DNA of 64,000 nucleotides, from NCBI RefSeq assembly GCF_024320785.1, contig NZ_JANDBC010000001.1, positions 1,122,001 to 1,186,000 of the forward strand, in the 5' to 3' direction. Under the pieces are notes generated by a model. That model saw only the letters and a list, made by a program, of their open reading frames with translations. It was not told the DNA's origin and did no database searches. The position numbers and the translations under genes are program-made. Positions 15,452 through 37,726 of the stretch are shown here, one piece after another (within the stretch, counting starts at the first letter, position 1; each line of letters starts with the position of its first letter). Source of the stretch: Gracilimonas sediminicola. GTDB lineage: Bacteria; Bacteroidota; Rhodothermia; Balneolales; Balneolaceae.

Positions 15452-17161
15452 TTAGTTCTTCCAGTCTTCAAAAAGATTTTCGAGCTCTTCGGAGGAAGCC
15501 AATGTCAGCGCAGATTTTGCAAATTGCTCAAACTCTGCTTTGGTTTTGGAGTGAAGGAGTTCACTGATTTCGGGTATCGACTCAGGCACCATGCTCAACT
15601 CCTGAATGCCCATACCGATAAGGCAGGCTGCGCCGATTTCATCACCGGCCAATTCGCCACATACGCTCACGTCAATGCCGGCTTTTTCCGCTCCCTTAAC
15701 CGTGTTACTGATCAAGTGCAGCACAGAGGGGTGGTAATGCTGAAATAGGTTGCAGATGCGCTCATTTCCGCGATCCACCGCCATCGTATATTGTGTGAGG
15801 TCGTTAGTACCCATGCTTAAAAAATCCACTTCTTTGGCAAAGTGATAAGCAGAAAGGGCAACACTCGGTACTTCCACCATCAACCCAAGCGGAATCGATT
15901 CACCTAACTCCACACCCTCCGTTTTCAGTTCTGTTATAACGGATTCAAGTTCATCCTTAATCTCAGCCACTTCATCGATCACAGATACCATGGGCACCAA
16001 AATCCGAATTCGCCCCGGATAATCAGCAGCAGTTCTAACAATTGCGTTAAGCTGATTATGCAGCAGTTCTTTTTCGTCCAGCAGCAGGCGTATGCCTCTC
16101 CATCCTAAAAACGGGTTCGCCTCTTTCACCGTCCGGCTGCTGGTTTTATCTCCGCCAATGTCGAACAACCGAATCGTAACCGACCCGGTGGATCCTTCTA
16201 ACACAGCCGAATAAAAAGCTCGTTGTTCTTCCATGCTTTTTCTTAACCGGTGGCCAAATAACAGGCTCTCCGTTCTCAGCAACCCAATACCCTGCGCGCC
16301 GTGTTCTTTTATCTTGGGAAGCTCGGCCTCGAATTCAATATTAGCTGTAATTTTCAGGGAAACGCCATCGGCCGTCTCAAAACTGTCGGGGCGCTTTTTC
16401 TTTTTCCTAGCAGCTTCTTCAGCTTTTTTACGATATCTGGATATGGTTTTACGCGACGGGTTTAAAATCAACGTTCCCTCAGCGGCATCCAGAACTAACA
16501 TCTTATCATTAAGCACTTCCTTGGTCGCTTTTTCGGCACTTACAATACAGGGAATTCCGAGCGACTTGGCGATAATAGCAGCATGAGAGGTTACCCCACC
16601 TTTCTCCATAACCAAGCCAATGGCACCGTCTTCATAATAAGAAACCAGGTCGGTTGGGCTGATTTCACGCGCCACGATAAGTGACCCTTTCTTTACCGAT
16701 TTCTTTTTCTTTTGATCACAAACCAGATCGATAAACCGGTCACGAATGTCCTCAAGATCCACAATGCGCTGTCGAAACAATTCGGATCCACTTTCTTTCA
16801 GTCGTTCAATAAACTGGCAGTAGGTTTGATAGATGGCGAAATCAACACTAAGGAGCTTTTCTTCTATGATTTCAAAAACGCTCCTCTCAATTTCGGCATC
16901 CAGAATAATTTGCTTCTGCGTATCAATTATTTCTACAGAGCCGGCATCATTCAGTTCATCGGCCATCAGCTGAAGCTCGGCAATAAGGCTCTCTTTTGCT
17001 TTCAAAAATCGATTTTTATGCTTCTTTACCGCCGATTTATTAATCGATGTCGGGGCAACCGTCTTGGATTCGGAGCTCAATAAAACAGCTTTACCGATAG
17101 CCACACCGGAGCCAACACTTCGGCCTTTTAATGTAATTTCATCGGTGTTTGTGGCTTCCAT
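15452..17161 (-). CDS. ptsI: PTS enzyme I (phosphoenolpyruvate-protein phosphotransferase)
   Basis: Takes phosphate from phosphoenolpyruvate and passes it to HPr. The 569-residue protein has the usual length. The phospho-accepting histidine is His193 in GGVTSHAAI; the PEP-binding TIM barrel has GIGLLRTE, LFDIGGDKT and the C-terminal GTNDLTQYTMAVDR and CGELAGD. It is 18 nt downstream of ptsH in the same operon. No sugar-specific EII permease is present in the window, while an amino-acid permease at 33238-35343 carries an EIIA-like domain. Confidence 0.95.
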   Translation of the reverse strand: MEATNTDEITLKGRSVGSGVAIGKAVLLSSESKTVAPTSINKSAVKKHKNRFLKAKESLIAELQLMADELNDAGSVEIIDTQKQIILDAEIERSVFEIIEEKLLSVDFAIYQTYCQFIERLKESGSELFRQRIVDLEDIRDRFIDLVCDQKKKKSVKKGSLIVAREISPTDLVSYYEDGAIGLVMEKGGVTSHAAIIAKSLGIPCIVSAEKATKEVLNDKMLVLDAAEGTLILNPSRKTISRYRKKAEEAARKKKKRPDSFETADGVSLKITANIEFEAELPKIKEHGAQGIGLLRTESLLFGHRLRKSMEEQRAFYSAVLEGSTGSVTIRLFDIGGDKTSSRTVKEANPFLGWRGIRLLLDEKELLHNQLNAIVRTAADYPGRIRILVPMVSVIDEVAEIKDELESVITELKTEGVELGESIPLGLMVEVPSVALSAYHFAKEVDFLSMGTNDLTQYTMAVDRGNERICNLFQHYHPSVLHLISNTVKGAEKAGIDVSVCGELAGDEIGAACLIGMGIQELSMVPESIPEISELLHSKTKAEFEQFAKSALTLASSEELENLFEDWKN

Positions 17162-33237: not shown

Positions 33238-35343
33238 TTACTTAAGCAGTTTTTTCAACTCTTTGATGTCTTCAATCTCTCCGATAATGGAAAGCTCATC
33301 TCCTTCCTGAAGTACGGTGATACCATGCGGGATTTTGATCTGGTCTTTCCTTCGGATAATGGTAATCAGGCTTTGTCCCGGCAACGACACATCTTTAATC
33401 ATTTTCCCGATAAACTCATCAGTTTTATCCTCCGGATTCAGGATGAGTCGGATAAAGCGCTCGTCACGCAGCAGAATTTCTTTCAGTTCTGCTTCATTTT
33501 CTGCATTCACCCACCGGTCAAGGAAGTTCTTTGTGCCTACCATTTCAGCAACATGAGCCAGAATTCTCAAATGCTGACCGGAATTTTCATCAGAGCTGAT
33601 AAAGAATAACAGGCAGTTTAGTTTTTCTGCCCCTGCTTTTTTGGAGTCCAGATTCTTAAGTTTATCTACTTCCAGCCCTTCCTTCACCCGTACCAACACC
33701 ATCTCCGGCTCCACCTTTTCTTTCATCCGGGCATGATTAAGAGCCACCCCTTTAGCAATAGGGATAATTCGGTCTTCTTCCAACTGAGAAAGCATGTCGT
33801 ACAGTTCATTGGGGTTTTTACCCAGTTGTTCGGCAAATTCCTCACTGGTAGCCGTCAGAATTTCATCGTAACTGGTGGATCCTGAGAACTCCAGTACCCT
33901 GGCCCTTGAGATCATTTCTTCATAAGGGTCTTCCTGGCGAAGGCCTTTTTCTCTCAAAATAGTTCTCATTTCGTGCTCCAACCCCTGATCTTTATTTTCC
34001 CCCAACCGGGCATGAACATGGAAAATAGCACCTTGACGATCTACCTTGTCAGCTGCATAATACTTGAACCAGATTACACCAAACACACTCACTACAAGAG
34101 TAAATAGAATGGAAAGCCCACCCATTTCAAAAATCAGGATAATCGACAATATGATCCCGGCAATCTGAATCCATGGGTAGAAAGGTGAATTGAAACCAGG
34201 GTCGTATTCCTCAATTTTACTTTCCCGCATCACAATAACGGCAAGATTCAGCAGGCCAAATAACAACAACTGAAATGCACTGGCTAACTTGGCCACTTCT
34301 GCCACATTAAAAGCAACAAGGAAGAAAATCATCATCAACACGGTTGCTACTACCGACCATAGAGGCGTTCCAAGCTTACTTAGTTTGGCGAAACGTTCAT
34401 TAATCAGCTTATCCCGTGCCATCGCCATTGGGTAGCGAGAAGCCGACATAATACCCGCGTTACCTGTTGAGGCAAAAGCAGCAACTGCTGCAATCACTAC
34501 CAAAATCAGTCCGGTGGGTTCCGGCAGCCAGTCTAAAAATACTTCTCCTGCAGTAGCTACCGGTGTTAAATCCTCACGGAACGCTTCCGGTTCAAGCAGC
34601 GCTACCATGATATAAACGCCAATCACATATACAAAAACCGCCGTTGCTATCGCAAGGAACATCCCCAGGGGAATATTCCGGTCCGGGTTTTTCACCTCTT
34701 CGGCTATACTGGCTACTTTGGTAAGTCCCGCATAAGAAACAAAAACCATTCCCACCGTGGCAAAGAAGCCATAATATCCATCAATAAAGAAAGGAGTGAA
34801 TTGCTCCCTGGTAATCTTAACGATATCCATATTAAACACAGCAAACACACCCTGAATAATATAGAACGCCATTATGGAAACCAATGCAGCAACCAGAACT
34901 TTTTGCAAGAATGTAGTCTCTTTGGCTCCCACTACATTTAAAATCCCGAAAACAATTGTCAGGATGATCGCTACAGGAACTATAGGCACTTCATAAAAGA
35001 TGGAGATGTAGGCTCCCATCCCGATTAAGGCAAACGCACTTTTTAGCACCAGTGCAAGCCACGAACCATAGCCCCCTATGGTGCCAATCATAGGTCCGAG
35101 ACTTCTATCAATGATGTAGTAGGTTCCCCCGGCTCTGGGCATGGCAGTAGCCAATTCAGCCACACTAAACATGGTGGGCAATACAATCAACCCGGAAACA
35201 AAATAAGCGAGAAATACGGATGGGCCTGTTTCTGCAGCAGCCAGACCCGGCAATAGAAAAAACCCCGAGCTAAACATAGCCCCTGTTGCAATCGCATATA
35301 CGTCTGAGAGGCCTAATTCTTTAGCTAATTTTTCGTGCTTCAT
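33238..35343 (-). CDS. Amino-acid permease fused to PTS EIIA-like and RCK_C domains
   Basis: The 701-residue protein has an APC-type permease of about twelve helices (residues about 10-430; start GLSDVYAIATGAMFSSGFF). After a linker (430-485), residues about 485-630 look like a fructose/mannitol-type EIIA domain with a histidine in the active-site position (GVALNHAR, His537) and the internal LLFFISSDENSGQHLRILAHVAE. Residues about 635-701 form a TrkA-C/RCK_C ligand-binding domain (VSLPGQSLITIIRRKD). Permease activity could respond to phosphorylation by HPr (encoded at 17180-17452) or to a small ligand; this is inference. Substrate unknown. Confidence 0.85.
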   Translation of the reverse strand: MKHEKLAKELGLSDVYAIATGAMFSSGFFLLPGLAAAETGPSVFLAYFVSGLIVLPTMFSVAELATAMPRAGGTYYIIDRSLGPMIGTIGGYGSWLALVLKSAFALIGMGAYISIFYEVPIVPVAIILTIVFGILNVVGAKETTFLQKVLVAALVSIMAFYIIQGVFAVFNMDIVKITREQFTPFFIDGYYGFFATVGMVFVSYAGLTKVASIAEEVKNPDRNIPLGMFLAIATAVFVYVIGVYIMVALLEPEAFREDLTPVATAGEVFLDWLPEPTGLILVVIAAVAAFASTGNAGIMSASRYPMAMARDKLINERFAKLSKLGTPLWSVVATVLMMIFFLVAFNVAEVAKLASAFQLLLFGLLNLAVIVMRESKIEEYDPGFNSPFYPWIQIAGIILSIILIFEMGGLSILFTLVVSVFGVIWFKYYAADKVDRQGAIFHVHARLGENKDQGLEHEMRTILREKGLRQEDPYEEMISRARVLEFSGSTSYDEILTATSEEFAEQLGKNPNELYDMLSQLEEDRIIPIAKGVALNHARMKEKVEPEMVLVRVKEGLEVDKLKNLDSKKAGAEKLNCLLFFISSDENSGQHLRILAHVAEMVGTKNFLDRWVNAENEAELKEILLRDERFIRLILNPEDKTDEFIGKMIKDVSLPGQSLITIIRRKDQIKIPHGITVLQEGDELSIIGEIEDIKELKKLLK

Positions 35344-35875: not shown

Positions 35876-37726
35876 ATGGCAGAACACATTCTTATAGGAA
35901 TTGCGAGTATTTTCGTTTTTGGTGTCGGCGCCCAATGGCTGGGATGGCGGCTAAAACTTCCTGCCATTTTGCTTCTATTAATTTCCGGTATTTTGGCCGG
36001 CCCTGTTTTTGGCTTGGTGAACCCGGATCAGTTAATGGGAGACCTGCTCACCCCTTTCATATCCGTTTCGGTAGCTATTATCCTTTTTGAGGGAGGACTG
36101 AGCCTTCGCTTTTCGGAGCTTAAGAATGTAGGCGGGGTGATTGGCAACCTAGTTAGTATCGGGGCTTTACTTACCTGGGTGCTCACTTCCGTTTTTGGCT
36201 ACTACCTGTTTGGCTTTGGCTGGGAGCTCGCGGTTTTGCTTGGGGCTATTTTAGTGGTAACCGGACCCACGGTGATTATCCCTCTGCTTCGGCAAGTCCG
36301 CCCGGCAGGTCAGGTAGGTTCTATACTTAAGTGGGAAGGTATTGTAATTGACCCCATTGGAGCCATGCTTGCCGTTCTGGTTTTTGAAGTAATTTTGGCC
36401 AGTGGATTTTCAGAGGCTACTTCCCTTGCCGTGATGAGTATTTTCAAGACTATCTTTTTTGGCTCCTTACTTGGGCTTGGAGGTGCTGCTTTAATTTATT
36501 TCCCGCTTAAGAAGCATTTATTACCTGATTATCTCCAGAATCCAATCAGTTTGATGGTGGTTGTACTGGTTTTTACGATTTCAAACTTTGTGCAACACGA
36601 GTCGGGTTTATGGGCAACCACGTTGATGGGAGTCGTGCTGGCTAACCAGAAGTCGGCCCGTATTCATCACATCATTGAGTTCAAAGAGAATATACGGCTG
36701 CTGTTGCTTTCTGCCCTGTTTATCCTGCTTGCAGCAAGAGTAGAACTTTCAAGTCTGCTGGATAGTCTTAGCCTGAACATGCTCGCTTTCTTGGGGGCTT
36801 TGATTTTCATCATTCGTCCGGCCGCTGTGTACCTGTCAACCATGTTCTCATCCCTCAACTGGAAAGAAAAATTATTCCTTTGCTGGATGGCACCGCGCGG
36901 GGTAGTTGCAGCCTCCATTTCTTCCATCTTTGCCATATCGCTGATGCAGAATGGGTATCCGGAAGCAAATCAACTGGTTTCCATTGTCTTCATTATCATA
37001 ATCAGCACCGTAGCTATTTACGGGCTTTCGGCCTCTTGGGTGGCGCGTAAGTTAGGCGTCGCTAAGCCGGTTCCCCGGGGCTTTTTGATTATCGGAGCAC
37101 ATGAGTGGGCCATCGATATTGCGGAGGCCATACAGGACAAAGGAATTAAAGTAATGGTAGCTGACTCAAACTGGAAGAACATCAGCAATGCTAAATCACG
37201 AGGATTGGACACCTATTACGGTAATGTACTTTCTGAATTTGCGCTGGATTACATCAACCTTGATGGATTGGGTAAACTTTTGTCTTTCACCCCTAATGAT
37301 GAGGTCAATGCATTAACGGCGCTTCGATTCGCTGAAGTTTTTGGACGTTCGCATGTATATCAGCTTTCACCAAACTCTAAAAGAGGCAATGAGCAGAACG
37401 ATGTAACTACCCACCTCACCGGGCGAACGCTCTTTGATAAAGACATGAACTTTGATCATATAACCGACCTTTATGAAGAGGGAAAAATCGTAAAATCTAC
37501 CTTGCTGACGGAAACCTTCACCTTCCAGAACTTCAAAGAAACCTATGGGGATGAGGCTGTTGCTTTATTCCTGGCTACAAAAGACGGAACTGTTCAACCT
37601 TTTGTGATAGACAACCCTCCGGTGCCACAAGATGGCGACACACTGATTTCTTTGGCAAATCCAGAAGCTGACTTGGACAAGAAGCCCGCCAAAACAACTG
37701 AAGAAGAACAAGCTGAATCAAATTAA
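35876..37726 (+). CDS. CPA1-type sodium/proton antiporter with RCK_N domain
   Basis: The 616-residue protein has about twelve hydrophobic helices (residues 1-395; ISGILAGPVFGLVNP and VVTGPTVIIPLLRQVRP are family motifs), then a TrkA-N/RCK_N nucleotide-binding domain (about 400-520, GFLIIGAHEWAIDIAEAIQDKG), where the usual GxGxxG reads GAHEWA. Its likely role is sodium or potassium export and pH/salt balance, in line with a saline habitat. The final 20 residues are acidic and disordered. lysA starts 9 nt downstream. Confidence 0.87.
   Translation: MAEHILIGIASIFVFGVGAQWLGWRLKLPAILLLLISGILAGPVFGLVNPDQLMGDLLTPFISVSVAIILFEGGLSLRFSELKNVGGVIGNLVSIGALLTWVLTSVFGYYLFGFGWELAVLLGAILVVTGPTVIIPLLRQVRPAGQVGSILKWEGIVIDPIGAMLAVLVFEVILASGFSEATSLAVMSIFKTIFFGSLLGLGGAALIYFPLKKHLLPDYLQNPISLMVVVLVFTISNFVQHESGLWATTLMGVVLANQKSARIHHIIEFKENIRLLLLSALFILLAARVELSSLLDSLSLNMLAFLGALIFIIRPAAVYLSTMFSSLNWKEKLFLCWMAPRGVVAASISSIFAISLMQNGYPEANQLVSIVFIIIISTVAIYGLSASWVARKLGVAKPVPRGFLIIGAHEWAIDIAEAIQDKGIKVMVADSNWKNISNAKSRGLDTYYGNVLSEFALDYINLDGLGKLLSFTPNDEVNALTALRFAEVFGRSHVYQLSPNSKRGNEQNDVTTHLTGRTLFDKDMNFDHITDLYEEGKIVKSTLLTETFTFQNFKETYGDEAVALFLATKDGTVQPFVIDNPPVPQDGDTLISLANPEADLDKKPAKTTEEEQAESN

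Follow-up and report, generated by a model that had tools for sequence, protein, structure and literature searches.

Domain layout of the permease protein

On the minus strand of the window (the whole stretch of 64,000 nucleotides that was analysed) lies an open reading frame without internal stop, encoding an APC permease followed by a linker, a PTS EIIA domain and an RCK_C domain, see Table 1. The first-pass annotation had proposed this fusion without naming a strand, and it is borne out: all Pfam domains score over their cut-offs. The genes of enzyme I (EI) and HPr are found in the same window, and a Na+/H+ exchanger gene is the divergent neighbour of the permease gene.

Table 1. Features of the window, by position, and related fusions at other loci
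Feature	Position	Strand	Basis
ptsI, enzyme I (EI), 569 aa, GGVTSHAA active-site motif	15452..17161	-	Pfam PEP-utilizers_C, PEP-utilizers, PEP-utilisers_N
ptsH, HPr, 90 aa	17180..17452	-	Pfam PTS-HPr, E 1.4e-31
APC permease-EIIA-RCK_C protein gene, 701 aa	33238..35343	-	open reading frame, Pfam
TrkA_C (RCK_C) domain, residues 642-700	33244..33420	-	Pfam, structure matches
EIIA_2 (EIIA-Ntr-type) domain, residues 471-626	33466..33933	-	Pfam, fold, Foldseek
His591 codon, aligned with second His of EIIA_2 proteins	33571..33573	-	alignments
His537 codon, aligned with PtsN phospho-His	33733..33735	-	sequence and profile alignments
Linker, residues 436-470	33934..34038	-	conservation in alignment
APC permease domain, residues 1-435	34039..35343	-	AA_permease_2, match to GkApcT 6f34
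Divergent neighbour, Na+/H+ exchanger with TrkA_N domain	35876..37726	+	Pfam, neighbour counts
Na+/H+ exchanger-TrkA_N-EIIA, both His kept, no detectable EI/HPr	L193:1162-3474, L194:1168-3447, L195:2513-4828, L196:2959-5286		

The AA_permease_2 profile matches residues 10-405 (E 8e-41), and the structure nearest to the permease model is GkApcT (6f34; Z 43.2, rmsd 2.1, 417 aligned residues, 24% identity). Both the profile and the LeuT-type APC fold place this part among the amino acid permeases of the APC superfamily. The AlphaFold model of the full protein has a pLDDT of 84, and a separate model of residues 468-701 a mean pLDDT of 89. Further along the chain, PTS_EIIA_2 matches residues 491-625 (E 3e-12, 47.2 bits against a cut-off of 27) and TrkA_C scores 44.5 bits (E 1.4e-11). 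Profile and fold agree for the RCK_C part too, which matches TrkA (3jxo) and the c-di-AMP-bound RCK_C structures 5f29 and 4ys2. The linker is as conserved as the permease, with R446, G448, L455, E458 and K466 invariant in an alignment of 52 rows.

A contig scan with the single protein gave no match, while a scan with an alignment gave 80 loci. The architecture is present in Balneolaceae (Gracilimonas, Fodinibius, Rhodohalobacter), Cyclobacterium and Rhodothermota, and also in records labelled Gemmatimonadota, SAR324, Planctomycetota, Calditrichota, Chlorobiota, Lentisphaerales and Acidobacteriota; many of the records that bear it are metagenome-assembled genomes. The domain order is retained over several phyla. 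A chance or frame artefact is ruled out, as 137 sequences share the architecture. Sister APC permeases bear other regulatory modules, either TrkA_N-TrkA_C or universal stress protein domains (L075:3218-5251, L123:9076-11154, L066, L067, L068, L070, L072).

Histidines of the EIIA domain

A profile of the C-terminal module was built from 47 sequences, the window protein and 46 relatives. PtsN structures rank first against it (4gqx with E 8e-14, 3urr and 2a0j; also 1a6j). The motif GVALNHAR starts at residue 532, so its histidine is residue 537. In all four PtsN structures the column of this histidine is that of the phospho-His motif G[IV]AIPH, and the column of His591 is that of the second histidine; the first-pass annotation had thus put His537 correctly in the active-site position.

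The fold leads to the same family. The model of residues 468-701 is closest to PtsN (2a0j: Z 18.4, rmsd 2.1, 144 aligned residues; 1a6j: Z 17.8), EIIA-Mtl scores below it at Z 13, and Foldseek matches the domain with E 2.9e-9. At Z 11-14, the cytoplasmic domains of Band 3, AE2 and BTR1 are matched too. A profile score over the cut-off, the EIIA fold and an active-site histidine at the aligned position together identify a PTS EIIA_2 domain. In the clade of the window protein the proline preceding the histidine is usually asparagine, and the segment REK..STG ahead of the histidine in PtsN is not kept; the canonical GxALPHxR is found in most distant members, in other phyla.

Among 137 full-length sequences the His537 column holds H in 113, Y in 18, F in 3, N in 2 and D in 1, and the His591 column H in 132 and D in 5. 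The loss of His537 to Tyr, Phe, Asn or Asp, seen in 24 of these 137, weakens a reading of the domain as a phosphate acceptor. In a FastTree tree of the permease domain the presence of the histidine changes four times, at least three of them on well supported branches, and in three genomes (G046, G065, G175) the copy without it is the sole copy found.

The clade of the window protein, 35 rows once near-copies were removed, is more uniform. His537 is invariant (35/35), one of only 13 invariant columns among the 156 of the EIIA domain, and R552, H591 and R593 are likewise invariant across these diverse members. The positions around it vary, both 532-536 and 538, with N536 changing to K, Q or H. 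A fixed histidine among drifting neighbours is the pattern that selection for it would leave. In general, the EIIA domain is the most variable part of the protein in this clade: mean column entropy is 1.73 bits, compared to 1.25 for RCK_C and 0.73 for the permease, where 40% of the core columns are invariant.

A sister subfamily in the same family carries GVYFNFVR or similar, and in some genomes its gene forms a tandem with one that has the histidine. The paralogue in the genome of the window belongs to this subfamily and has Asp at position 591; for these two reasons it was rejected as a second phosphorylatable copy. Tandem permease copies occur at L076:3992-8277, L085:2821-7097 and L089:2716-7130, and at L076 and L085 one copy keeps the histidine and the other has Phe.

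Phosphotransferase genes, neighbours and exchanger fusions

The genome has the general PTS proteins. HPr contains AGLHARPS, with its histidine, and KSILGVMTLA, a possible serine site of HPr kinase; one HPr kinase and one diadenylate cyclase are encoded. There are three EIIA_2 domains, those of a free PtsN (GLAIPHAK), of the window protein and of its 693-aa paralogue, so PtsN and the two permeases are the sole EIIA_2 acceptors that the genome offers. The earlier remark that the window holds ptsH and ptsI and no sugar EII is true, and it extends genome-wide for the families searched: neither PTS_EIIC (PF02378) nor PTS_IIB (PF02302), the two EII families covered, was found. A sugar EII complex of the searched families is thereby ruled out.

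EI, HPr and a terminal EIIA without EIIB or EIIC of these families make up a PTS-Ntr-like regulatory PTS. It differs from the proteobacterial PTS-Ntr in its hallmarks: by Pfam, EI carries EI domains only and not the GAF domain of EI-Ntr, and the free ptsN is flanked by genes for a penicillin-binding-type and a membrane protein, not by rpoN. The free PtsN (L001:1468-1956) weakly matches the Pfam family of the Band 3 cytoplasmic domain, at E 3.8e-7 and below the cut-off.

Every one of the 48 sampled genomes with the full-length permease has EI, a share that falls to 162 of 248 in the remainder (Fisher p 1e-8). When genera are counted instead, 22 of 22 with the permease have EI, and 95 of 139 overall do (p 1e-4). 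Both the 48 and the 22 are hand counts, and relatedness was not removed beyond the counting by genus, so the co-occurrence is supportive rather than conclusive. EI is also found in most permease-less genomes of these families, a point against the regulatory reading. In 21 of 30 Balneolaceae genomes, by hand count, one contig bears both EI and the permease, some 11 to 23 kb apart, and two genomes of another family (G085, G242) show the same arrangement.

The TrkA_N-bearing exchanger beside the permease is conserved in Balneolaceae. Of the 86 relatives that could be assessed, 36 have a Na+/H+ antiporter gene (CPA1, CPA2 or NhaA type) no more than 4 kb from the permease gene, a trait with 15 changes on the tree. 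With only three PF00999 genes in the 3.57 Mb of the own genome, such a neighbour would be expected by chance in about 1% of cases (NhaA not counted). This adjacency is largely shared Balneolaceae synteny, yet it spans more than one antiporter family and more than one lineage.

Na+/H+ exchangers can bear the EIIA domain themselves. Exchanger-TrkA_N-EIIA-TrkA_C proteins are encoded at L063, L064, L103 and L205, exchanger-TrkA_N-EIIA proteins at L193-L197, L200-L202 and L204, and by Pfam an exchanger-USP-EIIA protein with the histidine replaced at L061. In one family (f12) EI and HPr are absent from 7 of 7 sampled genomes, and the four of its genomes that have an antiporter-EIIA fusion keep both histidines, at 40-68% domain identity. 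One more genome (G058) is without EI and HPr and keeps the histidine, which a single assembly gap could account for. On antiporters at least, selection can thus maintain the EIIA histidines where a PTS is lacking; there the pair may do something other than accept phosphate, and a phosphate reading of the window protein has to be held with corresponding caution. An 825-aa Na+/H+ exchanger adjoins the permease at L061:6533-9010, L084:2255-4732, L087:128-2605 and L093:2244-4721; in those at L061 and L084 the EIIA active site is replaced by GVVLYDAHT, which puts Asp at the histidine position.

In E. coli, PtsN acts on the K+ proteins TrkA and YcgO (PMC13104625). The antiporter neighbourhood agrees with this, which shifts the likely role of the permease beyond amino-acid uptake alone; neighbourhood and exchanger fusions suggest a part in the balance of ions and solutes, where PtsN is known to act.

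Possible function and relation to known systems

The best explanation, in which we have middling confidence, is that a regulatory PTS phosphorylates the EIIA domain on the permease, in the manner of LacS. We infer this phosphorylation, its effect and direction, the RCK_C ligand and the substrate from the arrangement described above. In this view a regulatory cassette is covalently joined to an APC-superfamily secondary transporter, and phosphate would pass from PEP through EI and HPr to His537 of the EIIA-Ntr-type domain. In a genome where a search for EIIB and EIIC of these types found neither, the phosphate would remain on EIIA as a signal, and with no recognisable sugar EIIB/EIIC the domain on the permease could only be a regulatory acceptor. 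By analogy with HPr(His~P) acting on LacS, the phosphorylation state, set by a high or low PEP:pyruvate ratio, would alter transport. RCK_C would be a second input, probably for a nucleotide, and/or a dimerisation unit, with c-di-AMP as a candidate ligand because the genome has a diadenylate cyclase.

The regulatory PTS suggested in the first-pass annotation is partly supported, by the fusion, the aligned histidine and a PTS for which no recognisable sugar EIIB/EIIC was found; the target, which it suggested could be the permease domain, should instead read as the EIIA domain acting on the permease. Its link from PEP to amino-acid uptake is not established, as the neighbourhood and the sister fusions point at least equally to Na+/H+/K+ and osmotic balance. 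Within that balance the likely role would be to couple solute or ion-linked uptake to the energy state.

The main rival is a phosphate-independent sensor. Here the EIIA-fold domain would be a sensing or coupling module that responds through its histidine pair to pH, a ligand or a partner, as in Band 3/SLC4, and the PTS would be coincidental by lineage. We regard this as possible but not probable. The exchanger-TrkA_N-EIIA proteins that keep both histidines in the four f12 genomes without EI and HPr fit it. So do the persistence of the His-lost subfamilies as intact, conserved proteins, the resemblance of the model to Band 3, AE2 and BTR1, the weak Band_3_cyto match of the genome's own PtsN and the clustering of the permease genes with Na+/H+ antiporters. 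It accounts less well for a histidine that is invariant in its own clade although the surroundings drift, and for the presence of EI in every tested genome with the permease.

An EIIA domain that is decaying, or that is only a structural spacer and regulates nothing, is quite unlikely. Such a fate would agree with its conservation in the clade, the lowest of all parts of the protein, and with the losses in the other subfamily, where the same-genome paralogue lacks His591 and its sister has lost the His537 position as well; however, the invariance of His537, His591, Arg552 and Arg593 across 35 members and a domain order kept over several phyla argue against decay. Most improbable is that the phosphorylated EIIA has its main effect in trans, on the neighbouring antiporter or TrkA-type RCK proteins, while the permease is no more than a membrane anchor or sensor, an idea that the frequent antiporter neighbours and the binding of free PtsN to TrkA and YcgO in E. 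coli (PMC13104625) would suit, but not the strongly conserved permease core, which is as expected of a working transporter.

If the relay to His537 is real, a regulatory PTS would be wired straight into a non-sugar carrier. This would explain the purpose of the general PTS proteins in bacteria without an evident sugar PTS, and it would place the link of EIIA-Ntr to ion transport, which is still debated, within a single covalent chain. Speculatively, and we think this rather unlikely as a whole, the EIIA module with or without RCK_C would be a portable transport controller with two inputs, PEP via the phospho-His and a nucleotide via RCK_C, setting ion and solute balance by energy state on APC permeases and Na+/H+ exchangers in many phyla; where EI and HPr were lost, the same histidines would serve phosphate-independent sensing, bridging PTS EIIA and the EIIA-like domains of SLC4. 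Nature provides variants with the histidine kept, lost, or kept without EI or HPr, which make the job of the domain directly testable.

EIIA-regulated carriers such as LacS and the control of ion transport by EIIA-Ntr are already known kinds of system. LacS of Streptococcus thermophilus is likewise a secondary transporter with a C-terminal EIIA domain, which is phosphorylated by HPr(His~P), and this modulates transport (PMC10703360). However, LacS is defined by a C-terminal IIA-Glc-type domain (EIIA_1) on a GPH-family carrier, whereas the window protein has EIIA_2 (Ntr/fructose) on an APC carrier, an RCK_C after the EIIA, and a genome in which no sugar EIIB/EIIC was found. With PTS-Ntr it shares the EIIA family, the closest fold (PtsN) and a regulatory PTS without EIIB/EIIC. 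The PtsN of that system targets the ion transport proteins TrkA, YcgO and KdpD (PMC13104625), while here the EIIA is covalently joined to a transporter with its own RCK_C, in a genome that also has a free PtsN.

SLC4 exchangers (Band 3, AE2, BTR1) also use an EIIA-like fold as the regulatory domain of a transporter, but their cytoplasmic domain is N-terminal and sits on a different transporter fold. This domain works without phosphate, and we know of no phospho-His relay in SLC4 exchangers.

The literature searched, which is partial in coverage, gave no paper describing a fusion of EIIA to an amino acid permease or antiporter; such a gap does not prove the architecture undescribed. The combination of an EIIA-Ntr-type domain and RCK_C on an APC carrier is real and widespread, and apparently an undescribed variant of EIIA-regulated transporters.

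Among carriers of the APC superfamily, KimA has a C-terminal regulatory domain (PMC10284832). KimA and CpaA are both controlled by c-di-AMP through a cytosolic domain, which in KimA is neither EIIA nor RCK_C. The RCK_C part of the window protein matches the c-di-AMP-bound antiporter structure 5f29 well, and c-di-AMP binding by the window protein is putative. GkApcT and other APC amino acid transporters have the same permease fold without the cytosolic EIIA-RCK_C cassette. In the permease family alignment of the window protein Lys101 is invariant and Lys209 nearly so; in a pairwise alignment Lys101 falls close to AdiC Asn101 and may for that reason matter for the substrate.
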